This document shows, in pieces, positions 11,343 through 40,455 of a DNA stretch of 64,000 nt. Made by a program: the position numbers and the translations under genes. The stretch is from NCBI RefSeq assembly GCF_035918235.1, contig NZ_CP109485.1:1302001-1366000 (forward strand), in the 5' to 3' direction. The notes beneath the pieces were generated by a model. It made no database searches and was not told the origin of the DNA. It saw only the letters and a list, made by a program, of their open reading frames with translations. The stretch is from Streptomyces sp. NBC_01445. GTDB taxonomy: Bacteria > Actinomycetota > Actinomycetes > Streptomycetales > Streptomycetaceae. Position 1 is the stretch's first letter. The number at the start of each line of letters is the position of its first letter.

Positions 11343-11434
11343 GCGACGCTCCGCGTCGCACCCCGTGGATGCGATTCCTCCCGGGCGCGAACGCCCAGGG
11401 TTCCTCGCAAGAACCCGCTGAAGGGTACGTTGAC
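11343..11434 (+). mobile_element. Remnant right end of a second TnpB-type element (opposite orientation)
   Basis: Two hairpins in the style of TnpB omega-RNA ends: GCGACGC TCC GCGTCGC at 11343-11359 (7-bp perfect), then 11370-11409 where TGCGA and TCGCA enclose a stem GGGCG-CGAA-CGCCC within TTCCTCCCGGG...CCCAGGGTTCC. The segment ends in GTTGAC at 11429-11434, the same terminal string (TTGAC) as the intact element. No tnpB body is present on this strand, so it is a decayed or recombined copy. Confidence 0.5.
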
Positions 11435-12652: not shown

Positions 12653-14044
12653 TCACGCCAAGCGGCGGAATACGGGCTTCACCGGCCGCCCGGCCAACCA
12701 GGGGGTGGGGTCGGCGGCGTCCAGTGCCTTCCGGTACACCGCACATGCCTGGGCCACCACGTCGACAGTGCGGTCGATGTCGGCGTCGCCGAGCGCGCTG
12801 CTCACCACGAACGACGGGGCCAGCACCCCACCGGCGAGGAGTTGGCGCAGGAACAGGGTGCGGTACTGCTGCGACGGCTGCCCGTTCTCGTCGAGGGTGG
12901 CGAAGACCAGGTTGCTGGCCCGGCCCCGGACGACGACGTGGTCGCCGACGCCCATGCTCGCCGCGGCCTCGCGGACACCGGTGGCCAACCTCTCGCCGAG
13001 GGCGTGCAGTTGTGCGGTGATGCCCTCCTCGACGTAGGTGGTGAGCACGGCCGTCGCGGCGGCCAGCGAGTGCGTTTCCGCACCGTGCGTGGTGGACAGC
13101 AGGAACACCCGCTCGCTGGAGTGACGAAGGCCGCCCCGCTCCATCAGATCGCGGCGGCCGGCCAGCGCGGACACGGCGAACCCGTTGCCCAGCGCCTTGC
13201 CGAACGTGGAGAGGTCGGGAACAACGCCGTACAGACCCTGGGCGCCCGCCTCGGACCAGCGCAGACCGGTGATCATCTCGTCGAAGATCAGTACACAGCC
13301 GTGCCGGTCGGCCAGCTCGCGCAGGCCGGCGAGGTACCCGGGAGTGGGGTCTCCACTGCTCCGGGGGCACCTCCCGGCCGAAGGCTCGGGGAGAAGTTGA
13401 GAGCTGGGGGGAGGCTCGGTGTGGCCGAGGGGTTCGAGGATCAGACAGGCGACCTCGTCCTGGTACCGGGTGAGCAGCTCCTCCGTGGCGGCCAGGTCCC
13501 CGTAGGGGAACGCCATGGTGAGCTCGGTGGTCGCCGCCGGAACACCGGCGGACATCGGCGATGTGCCGATGAACCAGTCGTCGACGGAGAAGAACGGATG
13601 GTCGCCGCAGATGGCCACCCGCGTGCGCCCGGTGACGGCGCGGGCGAGGCGCACCGCGGCGGTGGTGACGTCGGAGCCGTTCTTCGCGAACTTGACCATG
13701 TCGGCGGTCGGCACCGTGGCCAGGAAGCGTTCCGCGGCCTCGACCTCCACGATGGACGGCCGGACGAAGTTGCTGCCGCGGTCGAGTTCCCGCCGCACCG
13801 CCTCGAGCACGCGCGGGTGGGCGTGGCCGAGGCTGACCGACCGCAGGCCGGACCCGTACTCGATGTAGCGGTTGTCGTCGATGTCCCACACGTGGGCACC
13901 GCGGCCGTGGCTGATGACCGGGGCCAGGTTCTCGGGGTACTGGTCGTCGCCCTTGGCGTAGGTGTGCGCGCCCCCGGGGATCATGGCGTGCAGCCGCTCG
14001 TTCGCCAGCTGCGACCGGGGCAGGAGGAGCTCTTCGGCATCCAC
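12653..14044 (-). CDS. Class III PLP aminotransferase / glutamate-1-semialdehyde aminomutase-like
   Basis: 463 residues. Family hallmarks: HVWDIDDNRYIEYGSG, NGSDVTTAAVRLAR, LIFDEMITGLRW (PLP-binding Asp) and STFGKALGNGF (Schiff-base Lys). It is the last gene of the polysaccharide operon and more likely aminates a sugar or small acceptor than serves haem synthesis. Between EPLGHTEP and TPGYLAGL it carries about 25 extra residues (PPSSQLLPEPSAGRC...) encoded by a short repeat-like DNA insert at 13346-13424 that keeps frame. The insert is on a surface-type junction and the active-site motifs are intact, so the enzyme may still work. Start GTG at 14044; ribosome site AAGGAG lies inside the preceding gene's end. 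Confidence 0.85.
   Translation of the reverse strand: MDAEELLLPRSQLANERLHAMIPGGAHTYAKGDDQYPENLAPVISHGRGAHVWDIDDNRYIEYGSGLRSVSLGHAHPRVLEAVRRELDRGSNFVRPSIVEVEAAERFLATVPTADMVKFAKNGSDVTTAAVRLARAVTGRTRVAICGDHPFFSVDDWFIGTSPMSAGVPAATTELTMAFPYGDLAATEELLTRYQDEVACLILEPLGHTEPPPSSQLLPEPSAGRCPRSSGDPTPGYLAGLRELADRHGCVLIFDEMITGLRWSEAGAQGLYGVVPDLSTFGKALGNGFAVSALAGRRDLMERGGLRHSSERVFLLSTTHGAETHSLAAATAVLTTYVEEGITAQLHALGERLATGVREAAASMGVGDHVVVRGRASNLVFATLDENGQPSQQYRTLFLRQLLAGGVLAPSFVVSSALGDADIDRTVDVVAQACAVYRKALDAADPTPWLAGRPVKPVFRRLA
13346..13424. repeat. Short palindromic repeat inserted in frame within the aminotransferase gene
   Basis: The segment contains GGGGGCACCTCCCGGCCG, then GGCTCGGGGAG, then GAGAGCTGGGGGGAG. 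The halves CTCCCGGCC and GGCTCGGGGAG can pair into an imperfect hairpin. Its style matches the small G/C palindromes scattered through Streptomyces genomes (known to me from memory; copy number here not tested). It adds about 25 codons with no family counterpart and no stop. Confidence 0.6.
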
Positions 14045-14051
14045 GCTGACT

Positions 14052-14603
14052 TCACGTCTCCTTTTGCTTCAGGGCCTCGGCGAGTCCCGGCGCTTCCCGG
14101 TCCCGCTGGGACATCGACATGACCGGCAGCGGCCAGGGGATGGCGAGTTCCGGGTCGTCGAAGGCGATCGTCACGTCCTCGGCCGGATCGTGCGGGCGGT
14201 CGATCCGGTACGAGGTGTCGGCGGTTTCGGTCAGCGCCTGGAAGCCGTGCGCGCACCCCGCCGGGATGTACAGGGTCACCTGCGTCTCGCCGGACAGTTC
14301 GAAGAAGGCCCGGTTGCGGTAGGTCGGTGAGTCGGGCCGCAGGTCCACGACGACGTCGAAGATGCTCCCGTACGAGCACCGGACCAGCTTGGCTTCGCCT
14401 GCGCCGGTGCGCAGGTGCAGGCCGCGCAGCACGCCCCGGACCGAGCGGGACACGCTGTCCTGGACGAAGGCGTCCGGGTCGAGGCCCACCGAGCGGACCA
14501 CCTCGGCGTCGAAGGTGCGGCAGAAGAAGCCGCGTTCGTCTGCGTACGGCGTCGGCTCGAACAGGTACGCGCCGTCGATCGCCGTGACTTCGATCGCTTT
14601 CAT
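14052..14603 (-). CDS. dTDP-4-dehydrorhamnose 3,5-epimerase family (RmlC-like cupin)
   Basis: 183 residues, the usual RmlC length. Typical segments are YADERGFFCRTFD, SVSRSVRGVLRGLHL (catalytic His), LVRCSYGSIFDVVVDLR, and YIPAGCAHGFQAL. It would epimerise or otherwise process a nucleotide-linked keto-sugar. No RmlA, RmlB or RmlD is in the window, so the sugar is probably not plain rhamnose. The ATG at 14603 overlaps the stop of the preceding pyruvyl transferase by 4 nt. The aminotransferase follows 7 nt downstream. Confidence 0.88.
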   Translation of the reverse strand: MKAIEVTAIDGAYLFEPTPYADERGFFCRTFDAEVVRSVGLDPDAFVQDSVSRSVRGVLRGLHLRTGAGEAKLVRCSYGSIFDVVVDLRPDSPTYRNRAFFELSGETQVTLYIPAGCAHGFQALTETADTSYRIDRPHDPAEDVTIAFDDPELAIPWPLPVMSMSQRDREAPGLAEALKQKET

Positions 14604-15838
14604 AGGGCCTCTCGCATGGCGTGGGTGTGGGCGTGGTCGGCCGCCGGGAACAGGGCCGAGTCCAAGGCGCTGAACTGGTACTCGAGTTGCTGAACAGCGA
14701 CCAGGTTCCGTTCGGTGAGGGTCCGCCGCAGCTCCGCCGATCGCTGCTCCAGCGCCCGGAACTGCTCGAGCAGCCGGTCGGCGTCGACCTCGCGAGCCGG
14801 GTGGCAGTACGTGCCCAGGCCCATCTGGGCCATGAGCGCGTCGCTCTTCGCCGCATAGGTGAGGGCGAGCGTCGGCGTGCCGACCTTCAGCGCGCATATG
14901 AGGTTGTGGTAGCGGGTCGCCACCACGGTGTCGACCGCCGCCATCTCCTTCATCAGGTCGGCCAGCGAGGCCGCCTCGGCATTGGTGACCAGCGGCGAGT
15001 CCACCGCGTCGAGGATCGCGGCGACCACCGGTGTGTCGACCTCGTCGCCGGACAGCAGCCGGACCGGCCTGCCCTCCTCGACCAGCGCGCGGACGAAGCC
15101 GATCGTCCCGTCGAGGTAGCGCCGGTGGATCTCCTCGGCCCGGGCGCGGTCGTCGTTGCCGCCGTGGAAGTCCATGACGCCGACGCCGACCGGGCCCGGC
15201 AGGCCCGACGGCACGCTCGTCCGCAGCGTCGGCAGAGAGAAGGTGAGGTCCGGGTAGACCTCGTCGCGGGTGGTGTCCACGCCCATCGCCCGCATCGAGT
15301 CGCGGGACGGGGTGTCCCGGTACGACCGGTACGCGGCCAGCCGCGCCGACCAGCGCACCAGGGCCCGGGTGGGCGGGTTGCCGATCGGGGCGGCGCCGAC
15401 GCTGACCAGTGCGACCCGGGTGCCGAACAGCCGGCCGGATGCGCAGAGCAGGAACAGCGCGTACGGGAAGCCCCACGGCCGCAGCGGCAGCGTGGCCTCC
15501 AGGACGCCCATGCCCGGCACGATCACCACGTCGTGCCGACGCACCCAGGCGGCGGTGCGGACGGCGTCGACGAGTTTGCCCAGACCCTTCGCCACGATCG
15601 CGCCCGCCCGCGACGCGGTCCGGTATTCGCCGCGGTACCAGTGCAGCCGCGTCGCGCGGATCCCGAACCGGGTCGCCACGGCCTCGGGTCCGCCGCACAG
15701 CGCGTCCACGACCGCCTCCGGGTGTTCGGCGCGGAGGTACCCGAGCACGGCTTCGAGCGATCCGTCGTTGCCGAGGTTGCCGGAGCCGAGCAGGCCGAAG
15801 ATCCCGACGCGCACCGGAGTTTCGTCCGCGGACGTCAT
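14600..15838 (-). CDS. Polysaccharide pyruvyl transferase family protein
   Basis: 412 residues matching the pyruvyl-transferase fold: RVGIFGLLGSGNLGNDGSL at the N terminus, then PGMGVLEATLPLRPWG, LVSVGAAPIGN and the C-terminal VVATRYHNLICALK region that holds the donor-binding His. Members add a pyruvate ketal from PEP to sugar residues of exopolysaccharides. It overlaps both neighbours by 4 nt (ATGA), so it is translated as part of the block. It predicts an acidic pyruvylated sugar in the polymer. The true acceptor is unknown. Confidence 0.85.
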   Translation of the reverse strand: MTSADETPVRVGIFGLLGSGNLGNDGSLEAVLGYLRAEHPEAVVDALCGGPEAVATRFGIRATRLHWYRGEYRTASRAGAIVAKGLGKLVDAVRTAAWVRRHDVVIVPGMGVLEATLPLRPWGFPYALFLLCASGRLFGTRVALVSVGAAPIGNPPTRALVRWSARLAAYRSYRDTPSRDSMRAMGVDTTRDEVYPDLTFSLPTLRTSVPSGLPGPVGVGVMDFHGGNDDRARAEEIHRRYLDGTIGFVRALVEEGRPVRLLSGDEVDTPVVAAILDAVDSPLVTNAEAASLADLMKEMAAVDTVVATRYHNLICALKVGTPTLALTYAAKSDALMAQMGLGTYCHPAREVDADRLLEQFRALEQRSAELRRTLTERNLVAVQQLEYQFSALDSALFPAADHAHTHAMREAL

Positions 15839-16782
15839 GCCTGCCTCCCCTCACGGCCGGCGACGAGGGCGTCGACGGAGACAGTGAGCCCGCTCGGGTC
15901 GACCGGGGCGCGGTCCTCGACCCGCTCGCCGGCGCCGGGCCGGACCCGGCTGGACATCCATGCGGCCAGGTGGCGGTAGCACGCTCGCCGGTCGGCCTGG
16001 GACAACGGCGCCCGCCTGATCGCCGCGACGAAGCCCCAGACGTACTCGGCGAGCAGCCGGGGCGTCGGGTGCAGCAGGCCTGCCCGGCGTGGGTCCAGGT
16101 TGACGGACCGGGAGCGCTTGCCCGGGTTCGCCCGCTCGGCGCGGGTGGGGTGGTCGCGGCGGAAGTACAGCAGCTCCGGCACCTGGTGGAAGGGCCCGTG
16201 CAGGGTGATCTCGGCGACGAACGTGCGGTCCGCGTGGTGGTAGCTGTCGAGCGGCTTCACCCGGCGCAGCATGTCGGCCCGCATCACCCCGTAGAAGTCG
16301 TCGCCACCGGGCTCGAACAGCAGACTGCGGAAGCGCTCCGGCGGGTGCGGCGAGTCGGTGGCGAGCCCGTATTCGTACGGGACCTTCACCTGACCGTCGC
16401 CGTCGATGACCGCCTGGCCGCTGTGCGCGAGGATCACGTCCGGCCGCTCGTCCAGCGTCTGAACGCAGCGCTGCAGCAGGTCCCGGCCGTACAGGTCGTC
16501 GTGCGAGGCCCACTTGAACAGCTCGCCGCGGCACTCGGTGAACACACGGTTGTGGTTCGGCGTGGCGCCGATGTTCCGGGGCAGCCGGAGATACCGGATG
16601 CGCGAGTCCTGCGCGGCGTACCGGCGGCAGATGTCCTGGGTCCCGTCGGTCGAGGCGTTGTCGGAGATGACCAGCTCGAAGTCCTCGTAGGTCTGGCCGA
16701 GCAAGGCGTCGAGCGACTCGGCCAGGTATTCCTCGCCGTTGTACACGGGCAGGCCGATGCTCAGCCTGGGTTGGACGGTCAT
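15835..16782 (-). CDS. Family 2 glycosyltransferase
   Basis: 315 residues with a GT-A fold start LSIGLPVYNGEEYLAESLDALL, the NDP-binding VISDNASTDGTQDIC and a WASHDDLYG metal-binding DD motif. It lacks membrane helices, so it acts at the cytoplasmic face on a lipid-linked intermediate. It overlaps the flippase stop by 4 nt and the pyruvyl transferase start by 4 nt. It is one of three non-initiating transferases in the locus, suggesting a small repeat unit. Confidence 0.9.
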   Translation of the reverse strand: MTVQPRLSIGLPVYNGEEYLAESLDALLGQTYEDFELVISDNASTDGTQDICRRYAAQDSRIRYLRLPRNIGATPNHNRVFTECRGELFKWASHDDLYGRDLLQRCVQTLDERPDVILAHSGQAVIDGDGQVKVPYEYGLATDSPHPPERFRSLLFEPGGDDFYGVMRADMLRRVKPLDSYHHADRTFVAEITLHGPFHQVPELLYFRRDHPTRAERANPGKRSRSVNLDPRRAGLLHPTPRLLAEYVWGFVAAIRRAPLSQADRRACYRHLAAWMSSRVRPGAGERVEDRAPVDPSGLTVSVDALVAGREGRQA

Positions 16783-18077
16783 GAGGTCCTCACTTCGGGG
16801 ATGCGGTTGTGGCGGTCCTCACGCAGGGCGGACCGCAGTTGAAGCCACCACACGGCCGAACCGCTGACGGTCGCGGCGGCGACGCCCCAGGCCGAGCCGA
16901 CCGTGCCGGCGACGGCCGCCCCGCCGAGCCCGCAGCTCACGTAGCAGGCGGAGGCGAACAGCTGGCAGCGCAGGCTGCGCCGGGCCGCGGCGAGCGCGCG
17001 CAGCCCGGCCGCCGCGCCGGTGCCGAGGCCGGCGCCCGCGACGCCGAGGGTGATCGGCACGATGAGCTCAGCGGCGGAGTGCCAGACGCCGCCGAGCACG
17101 AGCTCGCCGAGCCGGTCCGGCATCAGCAGCAGCGCCCCGCCCCAGAGCAGCGCGGCGACGGCCTGCCCGCCGCCCAGCAGGAGGCAGAACGAACCGAGGC
17201 GCTGCGGGGCCCGCCGCAGCACCCGTGCCGCCTCCGGGACGGTGACGAGCGAAAGACCCATCAGTACGGCGAGGAACGGGCCGAGCAGCAACTCGGCACC
17301 CCGGACCGCACCCACCGCACTGACCCCGACGATCGCGCCGAGCCCGTACGCCCGCAGCTGGTTCGCGCCGCTGAGGCTGACGTTCTCGACCAGGTACCGG
17401 TAGCCGAGATCGCGCTGCTCGCGAAGCCACCCGCGCGCTCCCGTCATCCGGGGCCGGATGCCGGACTGGAAGTAGCCGTACCCCGCCGCCACCGTGGCGG
17501 ACGCACCCCAGGCGAGCACGAAAGCGGCCACGGTGCCCACGCGGGCCGCCACGACCAGGGCCGGGACGAGTGCGACGCCCCAGACGAGGTCGTTCACGAA
17601 CGCCTTCCGCCCGGTGCCGGCGGCGAAGAACGAGAACCGCCAGGCGTCCTGCAGCAGCAGCCCGGGCAGCATGACGCCGAGGCAGGCGAACGCGGGCCCC
17701 ACGCTGCCGCCGAGACCGAGCCCGACCACCAGACACGCCACGCCGATGGCGGCGCCGACGCCGAGCGCGGTACCCGACGACCGGGCCACCGCCCCGCGCC
17801 AGGAGGCGTCCGGCGCTCCGCTGAAGCGGACCACCAGCGGGTCGGTGGCAAGGCCGCGGGAGACGTTGAGCACCACGCCGTAGGTCACCCAGGCCAGGCT
17901 GAACACGCCGAACGCGGTCACCCCCAGCGAGCGGGCCACGTAGATCCCCACCACGAAGTTGCTCATGCTGGAGGCCGCCTGGTCGGCCAGTCCCCAGGAC
18001 AGCCGGCCGACAAGGGCCCGCCGGGCGGATCCGCCCGGCATCGTCGCCTTCTCCCCCGCGGTGGTCATCGGCGTCAT
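16779..18077 (-). CDS. Wzx-type polysaccharide flippase (MOP superfamily)
   Basis: 432 residues with 12 or more hydrophobic segments, beginning LSWGLADQAASSMSNFVVGI, a typical Wzx/oligosaccharide-flippase opening. It would move the lipid-linked repeat unit across the membrane. The ATG at 18077 overlaps the stop of the DUF4910 gene by 4 nt; an ATG at 18068 is an alternative. The frame open beyond 18077 belongs to another gene's shadow. It works with the Wzy-like polymerase at 24285 and the Wzz-like pair. Confidence 0.85.
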   Translation of the reverse strand: MTPMTTAGEKATMPGGSARRALVGRLSWGLADQAASSMSNFVVGIYVARSLGVTAFGVFSLAWVTYGVVLNVSRGLATDPLVVRFSGAPDASWRGAVARSSGTALGVGAAIGVACLVVGLGLGGSVGPAFACLGVMLPGLLLQDAWRFSFFAAGTGRKAFVNDLVWGVALVPALVVAARVGTVAAFVLAWGASATVAAGYGYFQSGIRPRMTGARGWLREQRDLGYRYLVENVSLSGANQLRAYGLGAIVGVSAVGAVRGAELLLGPFLAVLMGLSLVTVPEAARVLRRAPQRLGSFCLLLGGGQAVAALLWGGALLLMPDRLGELVLGGVWHSAAELIVPITLGVAGAGLGTGAAAGLRALAAARRSLRCQLFASACYVSCGLGGAAVAGTVGSAWGVAAATVSGSAVWWLQLRSALREDRHNRIPEVRTS

Positions 18078-19348
18078 GCCTTGATCAGCCCGGCGCCGTG
18101 CAGGGCGTCGGCCGCGACGGCGACGGTGTCGAACGGCAGCCCGGACCGCTCGGCGACGTCCAGCAGACTGTGCTCGCCGTCGGAGAGGCTGAGCACCCAG
18201 AGCATGGCCATCTGGGCCTGCTTCGCGTCGCTGCGGCCGCCGAGGGAGTCGTACAACCCGCGCCGGCCCAGCTGTGGTTCGCCGTAGGGGCTGAGGTTGA
18301 GGTACCGCCGGTTTCGGTCGAGGACGGCGAATGCCTCGCGGCAGACGGCGAGCGTGTCCGCCATTGCCTCCGGGGAGACGAAGTCCGGGTTGTCGGCCGA
18401 GGTGTGGTATTCGGGGTACCCGGCGTACGGGGTCCGGCTGAGCGAGCCCACGCCGAGATCGAACCCGGGCGAGCAGAACTGCCGCTCGTCGTAGCCGTAC
18501 GGGGTGAACTCGGTGACGTGGTGCGGGCGTTCGGAGGCGCCCAGCACATGCCGCAGCACCCGGTCGATCTCCGCGTCGCCGCGCCTGCTCTGCTTGTACG
18601 TCAGTTGGCCCGAGTCCCCCGCGCAGGCCAGCACCAGGCCGTGCTTGACCCGGTCGATCCGCTCCTTGTTGCGGGCCAGCCAAGTGATCGCCCCGATGGT
18701 GCCGGGCGCGTAGATGAACCGGTAGGTGTAGTACGGCGTCTGCCCGGCCAGCGCCCGGGCCAGGTACGTCGCCACCGCGATACCGGCCAGGTTGTCGTTG
18801 GCCAGCGACGGGTGGCACACGTGGCAGGAGACGATCACCTCGTCGGGGACCTGCCCGGGAATCACATGCTCGGCGTAGGTGAGGTGGCCGTCCGCGAGCG
18901 TGGAGTCGATGCGCACCTCGTACTCGCCGTCCGGCAACGCGTCCAAGGTCTCCTGGGCCAGGCAGAACCCCCATGTCGGCTGGTAGTAACTGGTGCGGTA
19001 CGGCACCCAGGCCGGGCGGTCCGGCAGGGTGTGCAGGTGTTCCCGCAGCTCGGCCAGCGGCATGGTCGCCGACACCGGCACGCTGTAGCCGAGCACGTGC
19101 AGGCTGGACGCGGCGAAGTCGACGACCCGGTTGCCGGCGGTGTCGGCGATGTACGCGTCCCGGATGTTCCACTCCTGCGGCACCGTCCAGTCGAGCACTT
19201 GCGTCCCTGTCGGCACTTCGTGCACCTGGAGCGGGACGTACTCGCCGACGATGTCCAGGGTGGCACGCACACCGTCGCCGGTGATGCTCCGGCAGAGCGG
19301 GTACAGCCGCTCCACCAGTGCATGCATCTCTTCGCCGACCGCTGTCAT
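18074..19348 (-). CDS. DUF4910/DUF2172 aminopeptidase-like protein
   Basis: 424 residues. N-terminal DUF2172-type region (LVERLYPLCRSITGDG, QEWNIRDAYIAD), an M28-like core with the metal-site string SCHVCHPSLANDNLAGI, and a C-terminal winged-helix-like tail (LLDVAERSGLPFDTVAVAAD). The putative metal ligands His, Asp and later residues (YHTSADNPDF) are intact. No signal peptide, so it is cytoplasmic. Members recur in surface-polysaccharide loci but their reaction is not established to my knowledge. An amide-forming or amide-cleaving step on an amino sugar is a guess. It overlaps both neighbours by 4 nt. Confidence 0.82.
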   Translation of the reverse strand: MTAVGEEMHALVERLYPLCRSITGDGVRATLDIVGEYVPLQVHEVPTGTQVLDWTVPQEWNIRDAYIADTAGNRVVDFAASSLHVLGYSVPVSATMPLAELREHLHTLPDRPAWVPYRTSYYQPTWGFCLAQETLDALPDGEYEVRIDSTLADGHLTYAEHVIPGQVPDEVIVSCHVCHPSLANDNLAGIAVATYLARALAGQTPYYTYRFIYAPGTIGAITWLARNKERIDRVKHGLVLACAGDSGQLTYKQSRRGDAEIDRVLRHVLGASERPHHVTEFTPYGYDERQFCSPGFDLGVGSLSRTPYAGYPEYHTSADNPDFVSPEAMADTLAVCREAFAVLDRNRRYLNLSPYGEPQLGRRGLYDSLGGRSDAKQAQMAMLWVLSLSDGEHSLLDVAERSGLPFDTVAVAADALHGAGLIKA

Positions 19349-20370
19349 CGGCGCCACCGCAGGGTGCCGTCGACAGCGCCGGCCTCGGACGCCGCGCGCA
19401 GCACGGCGAGGCGGGTGAAGCGTCGCTCGAAGTCCTCCCGGGTCAGCCCGAACTTCCGGTAGGCGTCGGCGAGTTCGAGCGCTCCCTGCTTCACCGTCCA
19501 CGTGCAGTCGAAGCCGGGGATCGCGGCGCGGAACCGGGAGAAGTCCACCTTGTAGGACCGCGGATCGGCACCGGTCTCCCCGGTGATCACCACCTTCGAA
19601 CCGGACACCGCCTCTGCGACCTGCTCGGCGATCTCGGCGACCGTGACGTTGTTGATCTCGCTGCCGATGTTGAACGCCCGGTCGTGGACCGCTTCGCGCG
19701 GCGCGGTCAGCGCGGCCGTGAAGGCATGTGCGATGTCGGCGGCGTGCACGAGCGGGCGCCACGGAGTGCCGTCGGACATCACAAGCACCTCGCCGGACAG
19801 GAGCGCGTGGCCCACCAGGTTGTTCAGCACGATGTCGGCGCGCAGCCGGGGTGAGTAGCCGAAGGCGGTGGCGTTGCGCATGAACACCGGGCTGAAGTCG
19901 CCGTCGGCGAGCGCGTGCAGGTCGTCCTCGACCCGCACCTTGGACTCCGCGTACGGCGTCACCGGGCGCAGCGGGGCGTCCTCGCCCACCAGGTCGTCCC
20001 CGCCGGCGGCGCCGTAGACAGAGCAGGTCGACGCGTACAGGAAGCGCCGCACTCCGGCGTCGCGGGCCAGCCCGGCCAGGCGTACGGACGCGTGGTGATT
20101 GATGTCGTAGGTGAGGTCCGGTGCCAGCGATCCCAGCGGGTCGTTGGACAGCGCGGCCAGGTGGATCACGGCATCAACTCCGGTCACGTGGTCGGCCGTG
20201 ACGTCGCGCAGGTCCACCCGATGCCCCGCAGGGTCCGCGGGCGGCGGGCCGAGGACGCAGTCGGTGAACAGGCCGGCGTCGAGACCGACGACGTCGTGCC
20301 CGGCGGCCGTGAGGACCGGGGCCATCACGGTGCCCAGGTAGCCCTGGTGTCCGGTGAGCAGTACGCGCAA
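19345..20370 (-). CDS. NAD-dependent epimerase/dehydratase (extended SDR)
   Basis: 341 residues. Rossmann motif LLTGHQGYLGTVMAP at the N terminus, catalytic YASTCSVYG (Ser) and TPYAESKVRVE (Tyr-x3-Lys), and SDGTPWRPLVHAADIA typical of nucleotide-sugar enzymes. The start is TTG at 20370 with GGGGGA just upstream, inside the previous gene end. It follows the RfbF-like nucleotidyltransferase and PIG-L protein, so it probably acts on the same activated sugar. Whether it is a 4,6-dehydratase, epimerase or ketoreductase cannot be read. Confidence 0.85.
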   Translation of the reverse strand: MRVLLTGHQGYLGTVMAPVLTAAGHDVVGLDAGLFTDCVLGPPPADPAGHRVDLRDVTADHVTGVDAVIHLAALSNDPLGSLAPDLTYDINHHASVRLAGLARDAGVRRFLYASTCSVYGAAGGDDLVGEDAPLRPVTPYAESKVRVEDDLHALADGDFSPVFMRNATAFGYSPRLRADIVLNNLVGHALLSGEVLVMSDGTPWRPLVHAADIAHAFTAALTAPREAVHDRAFNIGSEINNVTVAEIAEQVAEAVSGSKVVITGETGADPRSYKVDFSRFRAAIPGFDCTWTVKQGALELADAYRKFGLTREDFERRFTRLAVLRAASEAGAVDGTLRWRR

Positions 20371-20373
20371 GGT

Positions 20374-24282: not shown

Positions 24283-24284
24283 GC

Positions 24285-25589: not shown

Positions 25590-25590
25590 C

Positions 25591-27132: not shown

Positions 27133-27140
27133 ACGCCCCC

Positions 27141-31318: not shown

Positions 31319-31346
31319 CCGAAGTCCCCTTGTTTCTAGCCGTCTT

Positions 31347-33281: not shown

Positions 33282-33285
33282 GTGC

Positions 33286-34812
33286 TTACCGCGCCTCCTG
33301 GTCGCTGTCCGGGACTCGTACCGCCCATGACGGCCGTTCCGTCCGCACCCGGCCCGTCAGGTTCTCCCGTGCCAGCCGCTCGTTGTGGCCGCGCAGCGCG
33401 GTGTGCAGCCCGTCCCACAGGGTGCCGTCGGTCCGGTCCCGCGGATCTGGGTCGATCAGCACCACGCCGATCACCGGAATGAGCAGGTCGGCGAGCTGCC
33501 GCGCCACGGTGTGCAGCCACGCGGCGCTGCCGTGCCCGGCACGCACGACGAGCACGGTCCGGGTACCGAGGTCCGGGAGGCCGGTCCACGCCGTGCCGGG
33601 CGCGACCGAGCCGACGCCGAGCCGGCGCACCTCATGCGGCACGGCCGCGGCACCCTCGACGCCGACCACGTCCGGGCCTCCTGGCTTCTGGCCGCGGTGG
33701 GCGCGCCGCAGGGCCGGCAGATCGTCGATGACGACCACCGGTCCCTCCGCCGCCAGTGCCCTGGCGAGGTCCAGGGCGATCACGCTCGTGCTGCGCGCAC
33801 AGCCCAGTTCCAGCAGTGACACCGGTTCCGCGGAGCCACGCACGGTGCGGGCCAGCGTCGCGGTGAGCCGTTCGCGTGCCGCCCGGGTCCGTCGGCGCTG
33901 CCACCGCCTGGCCGGCCGGTGGGGCGCGCGGCGCAGTTCGGCGATGACCGATGCGCCCAGGTTCGCCGCGATCTCCCGGCGCAGCACGGGGCGGTCCGCC
34001 ACCACCGTGCCGACCGCGGCAGCCGCGAGCCCGAGGACGAGCCCGAGGACGAGCCCGATCGCGGCGTTGGTGGCAGCGGTCCTGGGCAGGGAGTGCCGCA
34101 CCGCTCGTGGGGCGTCCACGATCTGGGTGCCGGCGACAATCTGAGGCGTTCCCATGCGCGCCTCCTCGGCGCGCTGGTCGAAATCGGCGATCCGCGAGTT
34201 GAGTTCCGCCCGGCGGGCGAAGAGCGACTCGATGCTCGCCGACGCCGTCGGGTCGCTCTCCGGCGTTCTGTCCCCGATCGCCTTGTTGACCTGGGCGAGT
34301 TCGCTCCGCATTCGGTCGCCCTGGTCGCGCAGGGCCTTGGCCTCGGCCTTCGCCGCTTCCTGCATCCGCCTCACATGGTCCGCGACGAACGCATCCGCCA
34401 ACGCCTTGGCTCGGGCCACCGCGTCCGCGTCGCTGTCACCTGTCACCTCGATCTGCAGCAGGTTGTTGGTCAAGCCGGTGCCCCGGTAGTCCCGCATGAA
34501 GTCTTCCGTGCGTTCCGGGGAGTTGAGGGACTGCAGGGCCTTGTCGGCGATCCGCGTGGTCCGCAGCAGCTCCACGTCGGTGCGGATCAGCGTTCCGGGG
34601 TCGTTCGGCTGGTCCGCCTGATGCGCGACCAGCACCTTGGCCTGCGCGGTCGGCGGCGGCGGCCGCAGGACGGCAAGCGCCGCGCCGACCAGCAGCCCCA
34701 GTAGCGCCAGGGAGTACCAGAGGCGGCGGCGCCTGCGCACCGCCACCACCAGTGCCTGCAGGTCCAGCAGGTGAGTGGCTGCCGACGACTCCGAAGTCGT
34801 GCTCGTCGTCAC
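33286..34812 (-). CDS. Wzz-like chain-length protein with degenerate tyrosine-kinase-like C-terminal domain
   Basis: 508 residues. TM1 at about 33-50 (WYSLALLGLLVGAALAVL), a coiled-coil-like external region (MQEAAKAEAKALRDQGD), TM2 at about 245-270 (AAIGLVLGLVLGLAAAAVGT), then a cytoplasmic domain. At the place of a BY-kinase Walker A it has LELGCARSTSVIALDLA, lacking the G-K-S/T lysine, though VVVIDDLP resembles a Walker A' aspartate string. So it probably regulates length without ATP hydrolysis. It overlaps the next Wzz-like gene by 4 nt. Confidence 0.8.
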   Translation of the reverse strand: MTTSTTSESSAATHLLDLQALVVAVRRRRRLWYSLALLGLLVGAALAVLRPPPPTAQAKVLVAHQADQPNDPGTLIRTDVELLRTTRIADKALQSLNSPERTEDFMRDYRGTGLTNNLLQIEVTGDSDADAVARAKALADAFVADHVRRMQEAAKAEAKALRDQGDRMRSELAQVNKAIGDRTPESDPTASASIESLFARRAELNSRIADFDQRAEEARMGTPQIVAGTQIVDAPRAVRHSLPRTAATNAAIGLVLGLVLGLAAAAVGTVVADRPVLRREIAANLGASVIAELRRAPHRPARRWQRRRTRAARERLTATLARTVRGSAEPVSLLELGCARSTSVIALDLARALAAEGPVVVIDDLPALRRAHRGQKPGGPDVVGVEGAAAVPHEVRRLGVGSVAPGTAWTGLPDLGTRTVLVVRAGHGSAAWLHTVARQLADLLIPVIGVVLIDPDPRDRTDGTLWDGLHTALRGHNERLARENLTGRVRTERPSWAVRVPDSDQEAR

Positions 34813-36179
34813 GCGGAACCTCCCGTCGAGTGGCCGGGTACCGCGAGCGCCGGAGTGGCGTCGTGCGGAGGAAGGCCGGCGGATCGCGTCGGACGGTCCC
34901 GGACCGTGCCGGCGACGACGATGCCGACGACTTCATGTCTGCCGTCCGCACACGCCTCGGCGATGCCGGCGAGCTGCCCTGCGGTCCAGTTGCCCGCGCT
35001 GAGCACGACCAGGGCGCCGGACTCGGTGCCGCGGTCCGGCACCATCGGCCGGTCCACCGAGACGTCGACCACCCGCAGCAGCGGATCGCCCTTGGCCTCG
35101 GCCACGAGCTGCCCGGCGGCCCGGCGGGCGATCTCGTCGCCGTTCGGTACGACAACCAACAGCCGCCGGGGAGCCGGTAGTCGGTCCCGGAGGCGAGCGC
35201 ACACCCGCCGGTAGCGGATCCGCCTGCCGGCCTCGTCGCCGGACCTCTGCGGGGTCGGTATGTCCCACCGGGTGTCGATGCCGAGGAGTCGGCGGATCCG
35301 GGCTCGCGTGCCACGGTCTTCCGGCCGGTCCGCGGGCCGTTCACCCGGCACGTCGACGGTGCCGAGGAGCGTCGAGCCCAGCGCCGCGGCGATCTCCGGT
35401 TCGGTGCGCAGTCGGCGGTTCACCCGTGCGACGGCGAGATGGCCGATGACCGCGAGCAGGAAGAACAGCAGCGCCCCAGCGACGGTGAGTTGCATCCTCG
35501 TCGGCGGCGCCTCGCCGGTCGGCCGGGCCGCCGGCCCCATGACGACCAGGCCGGCCTTGTCGGCCGCCGGGTCCGCCTGGTCCAGCTTCGTCATGGCCTC
35601 CTCCAGCGAGGTGCGCAGCTTCTCGAGCTCGGTGCGGGCCTGCACGCTCTCCACGGACTTGCCCGGATTGGCCGCATTGGCCAGGTCAGTGATGCGACGG
35701 TTGGTCTCCACCACCTGCTGCCGCAGCGCCTCGGGCCCGGTAGCCGCGTCGGGGTCGGTGCTGCCGCCCGCGAGCCGCGCGGCGAATCCGACGAATTCCT
35801 CGGCCACCCGGTCGGAGAGCTGCTGCGCGCGCTTCGGGGTGTCGGCCGTTCCCGAGATCTTGATGATGTTCCCGTCGGCGGCCTTGGCGCTCACCCGGTC
35901 CCGCAGCCCGGCGGCGCTGACGCCCCTCCAGCCGAGCTTGGCCGCCACGGGGTCGACCACCGACGAACTGGTCGCGATGTCCACCTGGGTCAGTAGTTCG
36001 CGCTCTTCCCACTGCCCCGGCAGCAGTACCGATGTCGACGCCGTGTAGCGAGGCGGAAACACCACCACCGAGGCGCCGTAGCCGACGAGCGCGCCCACCA
36101 CGGTGAGAACGGCGAGAAGCCGCCAGCGCCGACTGAGAATCCGTCCGATCGTGACCAGACGTATCGTGTCTTCGCTCAA
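34809..36179 (-). CDS. Wzz-like polysaccharide co-polymerase
   Basis: 456 residues. A Wzz domain begins IRLVTIGRILSRRWRLLAVL with TM1, followed by PPRYTASTSVLLPG, a helical external region (VETNRRITDLANAANPG) and TM2 near 230-250 (LTVAGALLFFLLAVIGHLAV). The cytoplasmic part (RRLLVVVPNGDEIARRAAGQL) again lacks a clear Walker A. It overlaps both neighbours by 4 nt. It is the second of two related co-polymerases; they may form a mixed ring or set two chain lengths. Confidence 0.82.
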   Translation of the reverse strand: MSEDTIRLVTIGRILSRRWRLLAVLTVVGALVGYGASVVVFPPRYTASTSVLLPGQWEERELLTQVDIATSSSVVDPVAAKLGWRGVSAAGLRDRVSAKAADGNIIKISGTADTPKRAQQLSDRVAEEFVGFAARLAGGSTDPDAATGPEALRQQVVETNRRITDLANAANPGKSVESVQARTELEKLRTSLEEAMTKLDQADPAADKAGLVVMGPAARPTGEAPPTRMQLTVAGALLFFLLAVIGHLAVARVNRRLRTEPEIAAALGSTLLGTVDVPGERPADRPEDRGTRARIRRLLGIDTRWDIPTPQRSGDEAGRRIRYRRVCARLRDRLPAPRRLLVVVPNGDEIARRAAGQLVAEAKGDPLLRVVDVSVDRPMVPDRGTESGALVVLSAGNWTAGQLAGIAEACADGRHEVVGIVVAGTVRDRPTRSAGLPPHDATPALAVPGHSTGGSA

Positions 36180-37441
36180 GGGTGCTGCCTCCCCCGCGCC
36201 CGGACCGGGTCGCCCGCCGACACCGGAGTGTGGTCACGGCACGCGGCGGCGTAGGCGGCGAGCAGCGACGCCTGCGAGTTCTTCCAGGAAAGGTGCCCGC
36301 TGATCCGCTCCTGGCCGATCTTGCCCATCCGGGCCCGCTGCTCCGGATCGTCAAGCAGCAGCATGATGAGCTTGGCGAATTCGGCCTCGTCGTTGGCGGG
36401 CGCGTAGACGGCGGCGTCACCGGCGGAGACGCGCGCCTCCCGGAGGTCGAAGGAGACGATCGGACGGCCCATCACCATGTACTCCAGGACCTTGTTCATG
36501 GTCGAGACGTCGTTGAGCGGATTGCGCGGGTCGGGGGAAAGGCACACGTCCGCGGTGGACAAGTAGCGCACCAGGTCGGCGTCCGGAACGCGCCCGGTGA
36601 ACTGCACCTGCTCCGAGAGCCCGAGCCGTTGGGACAGCTCCACCATCGCGTCGAACGCGTCGCCGGCGCCGACGAACACCGCATGCCAGTCGGTCCGCCC
36701 GAGTTCGTCGCGCAGCTTCGCGAGGGCCCGCAAGGCGTAGTCGACGCCGTCCTGCGGTCCCATGACGCCGAGGTAGCACAGCAGATGAGGCTTGCCGCGC
36801 CTCAACTCCGGCTCGGGCGGCACCGGATGGAACCGGTCGATGTCGGGTGCGCTGCGCACCACGAAGACGTCCGCCGGCCGCCGACCGCCACGGCGCACCG
36901 CGACGTCCCGGTAGCTCTCGTTCGTGGCGAGCACGATGTCCGCGGCCCGGTAGGTCCGCCGTTCCAGCGCGCACACAGCGCGGTAGAGCAGGTCCTCGCC
37001 GCGGTCGAACCGGGAGAGGTACAGCTCGGGTACCAGGTCGTGCTGGTCGAAGATGAACCGCGCCCCGTGCCGCTTCATCCACAGTGCCGGCAGGAACAGC
37101 AGGTCGGGCGGGTTGCAGGCGTGCACCACGTCGACGGGGCCGACCTTGCGGGCCAGCCGGAGCGTATGCCACAACGCCGTTCCGTACTCCCGCAGGTAGC
37201 CGGCCGGACCGCCGGTGGCCGCGCGCAACGGGTAGCGGTGGATCCGCACCCCGTCGATCGAAGCCTCCAACTCCGTGTCCCGCTTCTCCCCTTGAGGACA
37301 GATGACGTGCACCGTCCAGCCCGCGTCGCGCAGTGTCGTGCACTCCTGCCACACACGCCGGTCGAACGGCACCGACAGGTTCTCCACCAGGATCAGCGCG
37401 CGCCGGGCAGGCCCGGCGCCGCTGCGTACGTCACCAGACAA
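36176..37441 (-). CDS. Family 4 glycosyltransferase
   Basis: About 421 residues, GT-B fold: RALILVENLSVPFDRRVWQE at the N terminus, FDQHDLVPELYLSRFD, LLCYLGVMGPQDGVDYALRA and the donor-site NDVSTMNKVLEYMVMGRPIV. The best start is TTG at 37441, which overlaps the GDP-mannose dehydrogenase stop by 11 nt; no ATG or GTG lies before the conserved start. Family members such as WcaL/WbpY types add early sugars to the lipid-linked unit. Being next to the initiating transferase and dehydrogenase, it may add a mannuronic residue. Confidence 0.87.
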   Translation of the reverse strand: MSGDVRSGAGPARRALILVENLSVPFDRRVWQECTTLRDAGWTVHVICPQGEKRDTELEASIDGVRIHRYPLRAATGGPAGYLREYGTALWHTLRLARKVGPVDVVHACNPPDLLFLPALWMKRHGARFIFDQHDLVPELYLSRFDRGEDLLYRAVCALERRTYRAADIVLATNESYRDVAVRRGGRRPADVFVVRSAPDIDRFHPVPPEPELRRGKPHLLCYLGVMGPQDGVDYALRALAKLRDELGRTDWHAVFVGAGDAFDAMVELSQRLGLSEQVQFTGRVPDADLVRYLSTADVCLSPDPRNPLNDVSTMNKVLEYMVMGRPIVSFDLREARVSAGDAAVYAPANDEAEFAKLIMLLLDDPEQRARMGKIGQERISGHLSWKNSQASLLAAYAAACRDHTPVSAGDPVRARGRQHP

Positions 37442-38747
37442 GGCCCATGTATCCCGGTTCGGCCCGGCGCGCATCGGCGTCGGGAATGCGGATGAGGTCG
37501 ACGAGCAGCGTGCCGTCGTCATGGGGCAGCGCCGACAGCACGGCCGGATCCTTGGTCCCGACCAGGCACACCTCGGCGTGCTCGAGCACCTCGTCGACGG
37601 AGTCCACGAGCAGCTGCGCGATGTGCGGCAGCCGGGTCTCGATGTACTCACGGTTGGCGCCGAGCAGTCGTGACAGGTTCACGTTGGCGTCATAGATCCG
37701 CAGGTCGTATCCCTTGCCGATGAGCCGCTCCGCCAGCTCGACGAGCGGGCTCTCGCGGAGGTCGTCGGTGCCGGGTTTGAAGGACAGCCCGAACAGACCC
37801 GCCCGGCGCTTGCCGGTGCGCTCGACCAGCTCCACCGCGCGTTGCAGATGTGCGGAGTTGGAGGTCAGCACGTGGGCGAGTATGGGCACCGAGACGTCGG
37901 CCCGCTGCGCCGCGTGGACCAGGCTGCGCAGGTCCTTGGGCAGGCAGGAACCGCCGAAGGCGAAGCCGGGCCGCAGGTAGGCGGGGCTGATGTTCAGCTT
38001 GCGGTCGGCCAGGAACACGTCCATCACCTGGTGCGAGTCCACCCCGAGCGCCTGGCACACCGCGCCCAGCTCGTTCGCGAAGCCGATCTTCAGGCCGTGG
38101 AACGCGTTGTCCGCGTATTTGATGGCCTCGGCCGTCGAGATCGGCACCCTGAACAGCTCGCCGGGCAGGCCTTCGTACAGCGCCGCCACCGCGTCGCCGC
38201 TTGCCGGATCGAGCTCGCCGATGACGGTCTTCGGCGGGTCGAAGAAGTCCTGCACGCTCGTACCCTCGCGCAGGAACTCCGGGTTGACCGCGACCCCGAA
38301 GTCCACCCCGGCCGTGCCGCCGACGTACTTCTCCAGGATCGGTACCAGGAGGTTCAGGCAGGTGCCCGGGAGCATGGTGCTGCGGAGCACGACAGTATGC
38401 CGACCGCTCCGCTCGGCCAGCGCGGCGCCGATCTGCTCGGTGACCCGCTCCAAGTACGTCGTGCACAGGCTGCCGTTGGGCTCCGACGGCGTGCCCACGC
38501 AGACCAGCGACACCTCGCTGCCCATGATCGCCTCGTGGACGTCGACGGTGGCGCGCAACGCTCCGGTCCGCACGGCCTCGGCGGTGAGCTCGCCGATCCG
38601 CTCCTCGACCACCGGCGCCTTGCCGTCGTTGACCAGGTCGACCTTGACCTGGTTCACGTCCACGCCGATGACCTCGTGACCCAGGCTGGCCAAGCACGCG
38701 GCCGACACGCAGCCCACGTAGCCGAGCCCGAAAACACTTACTCTCAT
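37431..38747 (-). CDS. AlgD-like GDP-mannose 6-dehydrogenase (UDP-glucose/GDP-mannose dehydrogenase family)
   Basis: 438 residues, near AlgD length (436). It opens MRVSVFGLGYVGCVSAACLA; catalytic residues fall at the AlgD positions: Glu157 in NPEFLRE, Lys210 in AEAIKYADN and Cys268 in GFAFGGSCLPKD. Further AlgD-like strings are GLSFKPGTDDLRESPLVELA and NREYIETRLPHI. It would oxidise GDP-mannose twice to GDP-mannuronate, though UDP-glucose is not excluded without an alignment. ATG at 38747 with GGAGGAAC upstream. It supplies an acidic sugar to the operon. Confidence 0.87.
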   Translation of the reverse strand: MRVSVFGLGYVGCVSAACLASLGHEVIGVDVNQVKVDLVNDGKAPVVEERIGELTAEAVRTGALRATVDVHEAIMGSEVSLVCVGTPSEPNGSLCTTYLERVTEQIGAALAERSGRHTVVLRSTMLPGTCLNLLVPILEKYVGGTAGVDFGVAVNPEFLREGTSVQDFFDPPKTVIGELDPASGDAVAALYEGLPGELFRVPISTAEAIKYADNAFHGLKIGFANELGAVCQALGVDSHQVMDVFLADRKLNISPAYLRPGFAFGGSCLPKDLRSLVHAAQRADVSVPILAHVLTSNSAHLQRAVELVERTGKRRAGLFGLSFKPGTDDLRESPLVELAERLIGKGYDLRIYDANVNLSRLLGANREYIETRLPHIAQLLVDSVDEVLEHAEVCLVGTKDPAVLSALPHDDGTLLVDLIRIPDADARRAEPGYMGLVW

Positions 38748-38820
38748 GACCCGTTCCTCCCCCCAGGCAGGCCTTTTTGGCCTGCGGTCCGCGCGCCGGC
38801 CGGACGATGACCCTCGCGCA

Positions 38821-40344
38821 TCAGTAAGCCCCCTGCCCCTGCAGCACCGCACGCAGCGTCTTCCACAAGATCACTGCGTCCAGGGCGAGCGACCAGTCCT
38901 CCACGTACCGCAGGTCGAGCCGGACCGCCTCCTCCCACGGCAGGTCGCTGCGTCCGCTGATCTGCCACAGACCGGTGAGCCCGGGCTTGACCAGCAGCCG
39001 CCGCCGGATGTCCGGGCCGTACGCAGCGGACTCCTCCGGCAGCGGAGGCCTCGGACCGACGAGCGACATCGATCCGCTGAGCACGTTGAAAAGCTGCGGT
39101 AGTTCGTCGATCGAGTACCGGCGCAGCACTGCCCCCACCCGGGTCACCCGCGGATCCCGGCGAAGCTTGAACAGCAGGCCTGCGCCCTCATTGCGGTCGG
39201 CCAGCGCGGCCCGGGCCCCGTCAGCCCCGGCGACCATGGTGCGGAACTTGAAAATGGTGAACTCGTGGCCGTCCTTGCCGACTCTGCGCTGGCGATAGAC
39301 CGCCCCGCCCCGGCTGTCCACCAGTACGAGCAGCCCGACGAGCACCATCAGCGGCGCGAACAGGAGCAGCAGGACCGCCGCGCCCATCCGATCGACGACC
39401 CCTTTGACCGCCCGGCGGCCCCCGGTGAAGGTCGGCATGCTGACCCGCAGCAGCGGGATCCCGAGCACCGCGTCGACGTGCAGCCGCGGGCCGGCCACCT
39501 CCATCAGCACGGGGGCCACGACCATCTCGGCATCGCTGCCTTCGAGGTTCCAGGCCAACCGCTGCAGCCGGTCCGGTGACCAGTGCGGGTCCGGTGTGAC
39601 CGCGACGACACGGTAGCCGTCGCGGCGGACGTGGCCCGCGACGTCCGACAGCCGGCCGACGACCGGCACCCCCTCCAGTTGGTCACCGTCGAGCCCGAGA
39701 CCGTCCGTCGTGCACACCGCATCCACCCGCCAGCCGAGGTGCGGGAACTTGCGGGTTCGGGCGATCAGGTCGCGCACGGTGGCCACACTCCCGGCAGCAA
39801 GCACCGGTCTCAGGCACCGTCCTGCCTTCCGCTGTTTGTGCAGCGAGACGCGGAGCAGATACCGCTCAGTCATGGTGACGAGCGCGATCGCGGGAATCGC
39901 GACGAAGATCCAGAGCTTGATGTTGCGCGAGGTGAGGGCGATCCCGCCGAGCGCCAGCACGACGGTCGCCATGAACAGCGAGCGTCCGAGCCGGCGGAAT
40001 TCCTCGGCGCCCTGGCCGAGCACGGCCGGAGCCCACGACCGGCTCACCGCAAGCGCTCCCAGCACAAGGAGCTCGGTGCCGAATGCGAGAATTCCCCACT
40101 TCTCGTGCCAGTTGGCCGCGTCCCGGGCCCCGAAAAAGTTGCCGATCGCCGCCACCACCAAGGCGGTGGCCACCGTATCGCTGGTGATCACGGTACGGCG
40201 GTACCGCTGCTCCCAATCGTTGGCCAGCTGACTGATCGCCCCGTTCGCCAGACGCTCGCGCGCCGACGTTAAAGGGCCGACCAATTCCCCCTGCCGCACA
40301 GAACCCACCCCGGTCCCCAGTCGTTCGACGTGGTCGCCCAACAC
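38821..40344 (-). CDS. Initiating polyprenyl glycosylphosphotransferase (WbaP/WcaJ type)
   Basis: 507 residues. Four N-terminal membrane helices, a CoA-binding-like middle, and a helix (about 320-340, AAVLLLLFAPLMVLVGLLVLV) leading into the bacterial sugar transferase domain: YRQRRVGKDGHEFTIFKFRTM, YSIDELPQLFNVLSGSMSLVGPRP and KPGLTGLWQISGRSD. It transfers a sugar-1-phosphate to undecaprenyl phosphate, starting the repeat unit. The GTG at 40344 has GGGGGGAGGGA just upstream; a longer frame to 40452 would add low-complexity residues encoded by leader repeats. First gene of the locus. Confidence 0.9.
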   Translation of the reverse strand: MLGDHVERLGTGVGSVRQGELVGPLTSARERLANGAISQLANDWEQRYRRTVITSDTVATALVVAAIGNFFGARDAANWHEKWGILAFGTELLVLGALAVSRSWAPAVLGQGAEEFRRLGRSLFMATVVLALGGIALTSRNIKLWIFVAIPAIALVTMTERYLLRVSLHKQRKAGRCLRPVLAAGSVATVRDLIARTRKFPHLGWRVDAVCTTDGLGLDGDQLEGVPVVGRLSDVAGHVRRDGYRVVAVTPDPHWSPDRLQRLAWNLEGSDAEMVVAPVLMEVAGPRLHVDAVLGIPLLRVSMPTFTGGRRAVKGVVDRMGAAVLLLLFAPLMVLVGLLVLVDSRGGAVYRQRRVGKDGHEFTIFKFRTMVAGADGARAALADRNEGAGLLFKLRRDPRVTRVGAVLRRYSIDELPQLFNVLSGSMSLVGPRPPLPEESAAYGPDIRRRLLVKPGLTGLWQISGRSDLPWEEAVRLDLRYVEDWSLALDAVILWKTLRAVLQGQGAY

Positions 40345-40347
40345 TGT

Positions 40348-40455
40348 CCCTCCCCCCAGAAGGCCCCCGCCCCGCACAGTTTTTCCCCTCGGAGGCCCCC
40401 GCCCCCCGCGCCGCGCTGTTCCTCCCCCGGGAGGCCCCCGCCCCCCGCGCACGAC
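40348..40455 (-). repeat. Threefold imperfect repeat carrying the ribosome-binding region of the locus leader
   Basis: On the minus strand three units of about 36-40 nt each contain GCGGGGGC(C)CT followed by a purine run and ACAG or ACTG. The unit nearest the gene holds the actual ribosome site GGGGGGAGGGACAGTG, with its start. The two upstream units carry GAGGGGAAAAACTGTG and GGGGGAGGAACAGCG. It looks like duplication of a translation-initiation region. Confidence 0.6.

Follow-up and report, generated by a model that had tools for sequence, protein, structure and literature searches.

A conserved 21-gene Streptomyces operon with an AlgD-type dehydrogenase and a heparinase-fold protein in a candidate Wzx/Wzy polysaccharide pathway

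The 64,000-nucleotide stretch of Streptomyces sp. NBC_01445 analyzed here (the window; positions 1,302,001–1,366,000 of a 10.43-Mb contig in a genome totaling 11.47 Mb) contains an operon of 21 genes, all on the minus strand. It combines an AlgD-type GDP-mannose 6-dehydrogenase, a heparinase II/III-fold protein (Hep), a fused oxidoreductase (BiOx) and an asparagine synthase-type amidotransferase (AsnS) with three glycosyltransferases (GT4a, GT4b and GT2) and Wzx/Wzy-type assembly proteins. In our reading, to which we assign a probability of roughly 0.6, the product of the operon is a single conserved acidic heteropolysaccharide assembled through the Wzx/Wzy route, with every chemical step predicted from gene content. 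The initial annotation of the locus had described an alginate-like enzyme set placed inside an exopolysaccharide operon. This interpretation is partly supported: the genes that it named all lie on the minus strand at their given places, but the locus as a whole is not alginate-like and is a 21-gene Wzx/Wzy-type operon with a seven-gene branched-deoxysugar cassette and a pyruvyltransferase. The annotated gene list was correct as far as it went, but it did not contain the BiOx fusion, GT2, the pyruvyltransferase or the seven sugar genes between 12653 and 23044. Family calls were made with Pfam and, for part of the genes, also with NCBIfam.

Operon organization and conservation in Streptomyces

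The operon runs from the gene of the initiating transferase (start at ∼40299) to an aminotransferase gene (end at 12653). The spacing at the 20 junctions between its genes is −14 to +28 bp, except for 73 bp behind the first gene, with approximate starts of five genes (GT4a, Wzy, GT4b, PIG-L and DUF4910) bearing on these values. The near-continuous coupling reported in the initial annotation is thus real. Within the genus, Hep was found in 72 of the 199 genomes, about one third, and the DUF4910 gene of the operon was also found in 72 of 199, which were the same genomes when the printed lists were compared by eye. AlgD at E ≤ 1e-150 was present in 73 of 199, and the additional genome is 82% complete. 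Twenty of the 72 Hep-positive genomes, picked for long contigs and a spread of identity, were fetched, and colinearity was counted from tblastn matches of >60 bits and >45% identity. All 20 relatives contained all 21 genes at 63–96% identity in a single order and on a single strand; one Wzz match among them covers half or less of the query. The synteny that had been proposed as a check of the locus is therefore present, and to a degree that is more than chance. This was in agreement with a set of 387 named stretches encoding a relative, of which the 80 best, 78 of them titled Streptomyces, were used: each of the 80 was colinear across the part covered.

The convergent gene of a PAP2 phosphatase (11908–12645, plus strand; Pfam PAP2), which adjoins the operon end, is its neighbor in 20 of 20 relatives as well. 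In contrast, of the seven other flanking proteins tested in the same relatives, six were found in none and one in a single relative (one of the six, encoded at 7508–9430, lies mostly beyond the fetched stretches). The conserved unit therefore consists of the 21 genes and PAP2. Hep is also located on large plasmids in three Streptomyces records, and the one that was read through carries the whole operon with PAP2. The all-or-none conservation of the 21 genes is new here. Wzx/Wzy loci tend to be variable, so gene-for-gene upkeep across a genus is unusual and suggests a single defined polymer that serves a common role in development.

The operon is most likely orthologous to SCO0381–0401 of S. 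coelicolor, a ‘deoxysugar/glycosyltransferase cluster’ that is described, in the sections of PMC2000904 and PMC3610822 concerned with it, as 21 genes that possibly form one operon. All 21 genes are listed in Table 4 of PMC3610822 and all are raised in the second mycelium. The listed order (glycosyl transferase, dehydrogenase, hypothetical, two exopolysaccharide transport proteins, asparagine synthetase, bi-domain oxidoreductase, hypothetical, lipoprotein and, at the end, glutamate-1-semialdehyde aminomutase) fits the window operon, and no difference was seen in this match, which is by annotation order and not by sequence. Some of the table's annotations are uninformative, with SCO0388, SCO0390 and SCO0394 given only as ‘hypothetical’ and SCO0399 as ‘possible membrane protein’; passages of other papers give SCO0383 as a glycosyl transferase and SCO0397 as an integral membrane protein (PMC5826349, PMC4021200). 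According to the relevant part of PMC2000904, SCO0383 and SCO0399 contain TTA codons, and four of the five detected proteins are lower in a bldA mutant. The window operon has one TTA codon, in its first gene, and TTA codons occur in the aligned operon parts of 13 of the 20 relatives, with the highest frequency in the first and second genes (12 and 9 of 20). In passages that touch on the cluster, expression of six of its genes is reported to fall in a mutant of the SCO4117 sigma factor (PMC5826349), of nine in an S. lividans adpA mutant (PMC4021200) and of two in a dispersed strain (PMC6629963). In a similar passage of PMC5982138, SCO0382 is predicted to produce GDP-mannuronate within an operon that has features of extracellular polysaccharide synthesis. 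Because both the cluster and this reading of SCO0382 are in print, the mannuronate idea for the locus is not new. The initial annotation had recognized no Streptomyces polymer made in this way; this agrees with the literature insofar as no polymer composition tied to the operon was found, but the locus itself and its GDP-mannuronate reading had already been published.

AlgD-type dehydrogenase and heparinase-fold protein

The dehydrogenase (37431–38747) scored 483.7 bits against Pseudomonas aeruginosa AlgD (1mfz), compared with 223.1 bits for the best UDP-glucose dehydrogenase. In a tree of 24 rows, it is placed in a 13-row AlgD clade with a support of 100/99, and the UDP-glucose and N-acetylmannosamine (ManNAc) dehydrogenases and four further dehydrogenases of the same genome are outside this clade. 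The likeness to AlgD spans residues 1–421 of 438 and includes the catalytic GGSCLPKD motif at residue 265. The enzyme is thus AlgD-type, as had been proposed, and not UDP-glucose-type; the clustering with UDP-glucose dehydrogenases that would have spoken against it was checked and not seen. GDP-mannose is its predicted substrate. An NCBIfam match points to a UDP-glucose dehydrogenase model, but this match is well under its cut-off and is outweighed by the AlgD score and the clade.

Hep (27141–29117) has an (α/α) toroid and β-sandwich fold, as in heparinase II/III-fold uronate lyases and epimerases. Residues N236, Y290 and H446 align to the Asn, Tyr and His of heparinase III, which we take to be the catalytic residues, and are kept in 100, 100 and 102 of 105 rows. 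The closest folds are those of lyases, with heparinase III and alginate lyases ranking above the epimerase 6hzn. The N-terminus has no hydrophobic stretch, and thus no signal peptide, in a hydrophobicity test that is crude, with AlgD itself above its line. The heparinase II/III assignment of the initial annotation therefore held for the fold and the intact catalytic residues, but an extracellular alginate lyase is unlikely because of the missing signal peptide. Together with the retained catalytic residues, this feature suggests that Hep may be a cytosolic uronate-editing enzyme, either an epimerase or a lyase. The substrates of heparinase III (PL12), PL17 alginate lyases and human dermatan sulfate epimerase 1 are polymers located outside the cytosol. 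All three share the fold and catalytic residues of Hep, as described in parts of PMC8006597 and PMC11848413, but differ from it in that Hep is devoid of the N-terminal hydrophobic stretch. The Hep gene overlaps by 4 bp with that of BiOx (29114–31318), a protein of 734 residues in which Pfam identifies a zinc-dehydrogenase fused to a Gfo/Idh/MocA oxidoreductase and which is named ‘bi-domain-containing oxidoreductase’ in annotated relatives.

The same Wzx/Wzy polymer could be made with Hep in a housekeeping function, as a lyase that clears lipid-linked uronate oligosaccharides whose assembly has stalled or gone wrong, or that recycles polymer, leaving the product unshaped. The rank of the lyases among the closest folds and a catalytic set that is the lyase set would fit such a function. 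However, the N-terminus of Hep and the overlap of its gene with BiOx place it in the synthetic machinery, and each of the 72 genus genomes found to have the DUF4910 gene also contains Hep. The fold itself cannot decide between lyase and epimerase, because lyases are argued to become epimerases by small active-site changes in the part of PMC8006597 that deals with this question. We regard the housekeeping function as unlikely, but as one that deserves serious weight.

The beta-helix lipoprotein (25591–27132; Pfam Beta_helix) is encoded next to Hep. A hydrophobic N-terminus is present in 40 of 40 rows of its alignment. Its structure model is only partly confident (predicted local distance difference test score, pLDDT, of 62); in Foldseek, the mannuronan epimerases AlgE4 and AlgE6 match it best (about 1e-5), and in a second alignment of the model a glycoside hydrolase came first, with unrelated beta-helices close behind. 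The DPH motif was absent from all 40 rows; we take DPH[D/E] to be the motif of AlgG/AlgE-type C5-epimerases. The modeled fold thus resembles AlgE/AlgG, in line with the AlgG fold proposed for this protein, but the motif is missing and the scores of further beta-helix proteins are almost as high or higher. The lipoprotein is a candidate polysaccharide-modifying or -trimming protein.

Outside the genus, the nearer Hep relatives are found together with the AlgD-type dehydrogenase and GT4a (36176–37441, start approximate; Pfam GT4), which makes GT4a a candidate mannuronosyltransferase. At E ≤ 1e-12, Hep occurred in 28 of 396 Actinomycetota genomes, 23 of which are outside Streptomyces. The regions of all 23 were fetched (several are clipped by contig ends, and L187 and L193 gave no tblastn match even for Hep), and three of them have an AlgD-type dehydrogenase together with a GT4a homologue at a distance of up to ∼10 kb; these three also have the highest Hep scores found beyond Streptomyces. 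Fourteen plasmid records outside Streptomyces also match Hep. The six regions with long matches (Shinella, three Rhizobium, Deinococcus and Paroceanicella) were read, with a sister Shinella record and seven short matches set aside, and all six contain an AlgD-type dehydrogenase and a GT4a homologue of 47–51% identity. These two genes adjoin Hep in five regions and are ∼7–10 kb away in Paroceanicella; one of the Rhizobium records has Hep broken into two frames. A GT4a homologue (47–66% identity) is therefore present in all nine non-Streptomyces regions that have an AlgD-type dehydrogenase with Hep. New here are the linkage of AlgD, GT4a and Hep in three phyla and a heparinase-fold enzyme that is probably located in the cytosol and has kept its catalytic residues. 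On the Deinococcus aetherius plasmid (L165, 19785–24708), opposite-strand genes for RmlC, an SDR protein (51% identical to that of the window) and a cytidylyltransferase adjoin AsnS-Hep-AlgD-GT4a, and the deoxysugar cassette may therefore be mobile in part.

A more specific proposal is that Hep is a C5-epimerase or an elimination enzyme of the cytosol, acting beside GT4a on the repeat unit while this is still linked to undecaprenyl, so that the uronate would be edited before export. AlgD, GT4a and Hep would then form a portable module, spread over three phyla, that places D-mannuronate or L-guluronate into Wzx/Wzy polymers independently of alginate synthase and AlgG/AlgE. We put this forward only tentatively and consider it doubtful.

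Assembly genes, sugar cassette and proposed pathway

The first gene (38821–40299, approximate) encodes a polyprenyl glycosylphosphotransferase (PHPT), the initiating transferase, which matches TIGR03025 at 388 bits, over the cut-off, contains Bac_transf and is annotated accordingly in KN37; its open frame extends to 40452, and the start was inferred by length from the KN37 annotation. The two Wzz-like chain-length proteins (A, 34809–36179; B, 33286–34812) scored 41.8 and 30.2 bits with Pfam Wzz, both above the cut-off of 25.5. The Wzx/Wzy route of the initial annotation is supported, but Wzx and Wzy themselves are weakly recognized. Wzy (24285–25604, start approximate), an O-antigen-ligase-type polymerase with an ‘O-antigen ligase domain’ in KN37, scored 25.7 bits with Pfam Wzy_C, under the cut-off of 31.7. 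The putative Wzx flippase (16779–18077) had zero Pfam or NCBIfam matches at the thresholds used and is identified by its hydrophobic sequence and its operon position, which is colinear in 20 of 20 relatives. AsnS (31347–33281) matches TIGR01536 over the cut-off and carries both active-site motifs of a glutamine amidotransferase/asparagine synthase, MCGI and SGGLDS, in line with its earlier designation. Its nearest model is TIGR03108 of the XrtA exopolysaccharide amidotransferases (460 bits, cut-off 817). GT4b (23041–24264, start approximate) and GT2 (15835–16782) were assigned by Pfam, and the polysaccharide pyruvyl transferase (14600–15838) by PF04230 (91 bits).

The seven sugar genes (12653–23044) comprise a sugar 3-C-methyltransferase (21809–23044; 288 bits with the D-mycarose 3-C-methyltransferase 4rv9), a glucose-1-phosphate cytidylyltransferase-like protein (21018–21812; 148 bits with 1tzf, and 185 bits over the full length of TIGR02623, cut-off 300), a PIG-L deacetylase (20374–21018, start approximate; Pfam), an SDR nucleotide-sugar epimerase/dehydratase (19345–20370; Pfam Epimerase, 95 bits with 6vo6), a DUF4910/DUF2172/HTH_47 protein (18074–19345, start approximate; Pfam), an RmlC-type 3,5-epimerase (14052–14603; TIGR01221 at 160.4 bits, over the cut-off) and a class III aminotransferase of the glutamate-1-semialdehyde aminomutase group (12653–14044; PRK06209 at 688 bits, over the cut-off). 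DUF4910 belongs to a family of modified-sugar operons in which, according to the section of PMC4000134 on them (Das et al. 2014), a nucleotidyltransferase, an epimerase/dehydratase, a glycosyltransferase and a sugar methylase are linked, several with a flippase-like exporter and a pyruvyltransferase; that section does not name an AlgD/heparinase module. The seven genes look like a separate branched-deoxysugar pathway and, together with the pyruvate-adding gene, indicate that the polymer should be a heteropolysaccharide. A branched deoxysugar could also be made for attachment to a small molecule or lipid, the locus then being a secondary-metabolite deoxysugar cluster, in keeping with its older label. 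This would accord with the D-mycarose-type methyltransferase, the occurrence of Hep on large plasmids in three Streptomyces records and the listing of the cluster with secondary metabolism genes of S. coelicolor in parts of PMC3610822 and PMC2000904. However, the same operon encodes the initiating transferase, two Wzz-like proteins, flippase- and polymerase-like proteins and the pyruvyl transferase, and no aglycone-building enzyme was recognized among the 21 genes, which makes a product other than a polymer improbable.

In the pathway that we propose for the acidic heteropolysaccharide, the initiating transferase would load hexose-1-phosphate onto undecaprenyl phosphate, the AlgD-type enzyme would make GDP-mannuronate, and GT4a would transfer mannuronate. 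Two further sugars would be added by GT4b and GT2, one of them probably the 3-C-methyl-branched deoxysugar from the cassette; three glycosyltransferases and the initiating enzyme suggest a tetrasaccharide repeat. The lipid-linked uronate may be edited in the cytosol by Hep, with its fused oxidoreductase partner, and by the amidotransferase, through C5-epimerization or β-elimination and amidation. Pyruvate would be added, Wzx would flip the unit, and Wzy would polymerize it under the two Wzz-like proteins. The exported chain may then be trimmed or modified by the beta-helix lipoprotein.

Several findings weigh against this pathway, in addition to the weak recognition of Wzx and Wzy, the crudeness of the hydrophobicity test and the reliance on annotation order in the match to SCO0381–0401. 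No published polymer or enzyme assay tied to the operon was found in the literature. In 20 of the 23 distant actinobacterial loci, several of them contig-clipped, no AlgD-type dehydrogenase is present within ∼10 kb of Hep, so that the Hep family in its full breadth has no fixed link to mannuronate; among the 23 regions, the fused oxidoreductase is found in 10, AsnS in 9 and dehydrogenases of other types in two more. No AsnS or BiOx was seen in the Rhizobium and Shinella regions. In plasmids of Sphingobium and Parabacteroides (L166 and L167), the oxidoreductase is directly followed by a gene with a heparinase or alginate-lyase-family annotation, with UDP-ManNAc dehydrogenase genes (wecB/wecC) nearby, and in Thalassospira the oxidoreductase is accompanied by neither heparinase-type nor UDP-ManNAc dehydrogenase genes. 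A Loktanella plasmid locus (L169) has an AlgD-type dehydrogenase but no GT4a match. In four Deinococcus Hep rows (P0121–P0124), most of the seven checked active-site positions are lost as aligned; the one locus examined among these four adjoins AlgD and AsnS. In summary, AlgD and GT4a accompany the closer relatives of Hep, and the family at large does not follow mannuronate alone. The Loktanella locus also contains a beta-helix protein, MBOAT, AlgF and an alginate-lyase-family gene and is thus more alginate-like.

A polymer with another uronic acid, made by an enzyme that belongs to the AlgD clade by sequence but oxidizes a different GDP-sugar, is allowed for by clade membership, which is not a substrate test, and by the pairing of BiOx with a heparinase-type gene beside UDP-ManNAc dehydrogenase genes, but it is a long shot given the nearly full-length AlgD likeness with its GGSCLPKD motif and the fact that no further GDP-sugar-modifying enzyme was recognized in the operon.

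Compared with the alginate alg operon of P. aeruginosa and Azotobacter, the window operon likewise has an AlgD-type dehydrogenase, an AlgE/AlgG-like beta-helix and an alginate-lyase-fold protein. However, no Alg8/Alg44-like synthase was recognized among the 21 genes by Pfam and, for part of them, NCBIfam, and multi-sugar Wzx/Wzy repeat units would be expected; moreover, the lyase-fold protein is probably cytosolic, and the beta-helix is without DPH. A likeness to XrtA/PEP-CTERM exopolysaccharide loci is seen in AsnS, nearest to TIGR03108, and in GT4a and GT4b, which weakly match XrtA glycosyltransferase models, with all these scores under the curated cut-offs. The imp, wps-1 and gsf clusters of Actinoplanes missouriensis are likewise described, in the parts of the literature concerned, as actinomycete polysaccharide clusters, several of Wzx/Wzy type, that are needed in development; this likeness is by description and not by sequence, and the wps/gsf paper does not use the terms heparinase, alginate and asparagine in its main text. 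Should the uronate be mannuronate, the operon would represent a Streptomyces route, besides alginate synthase, for placing mannuronate into a polymer. The linkage of AlgD, GT4 and heparinase-fold genes in three phyla provides a testable function for proteins annotated only as ‘alginate lyase family’.

Upstream region and flanks

A 14-bp inverted repeat, GGTCTAGATTGACC (40702–40715, minus strand), precedes the first gene's proposed start by ∼416 bp and is exact in 18 of 21 upstream stretches. A 21-base pattern that contains it has a single occurrence in the genome with up to two mismatches allowed. The repeat is a possible operator. Tandem repeats that are rich in GC, with units of 33 and 39 bp in overlapping rows, are found at 40335–40450, in the leader or the 5′ part of the first open frame, and the copy number of related units varies among relatives. 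Close to the other end of the operon, an OrfB/TnpB-type protein of the IS605 group is encoded at 10005–11588; it was not beside the operon in the 20 relatives. A 602-residue open frame with a dehydrogenase domain is present in three equal-scoring copies (G000:C1:137139, G000:C1:10295674 and G000:C2:137137), each ∼137 kb away from a contig end, which is the arrangement expected if the chromosome and the second contig share long terminal repeats.

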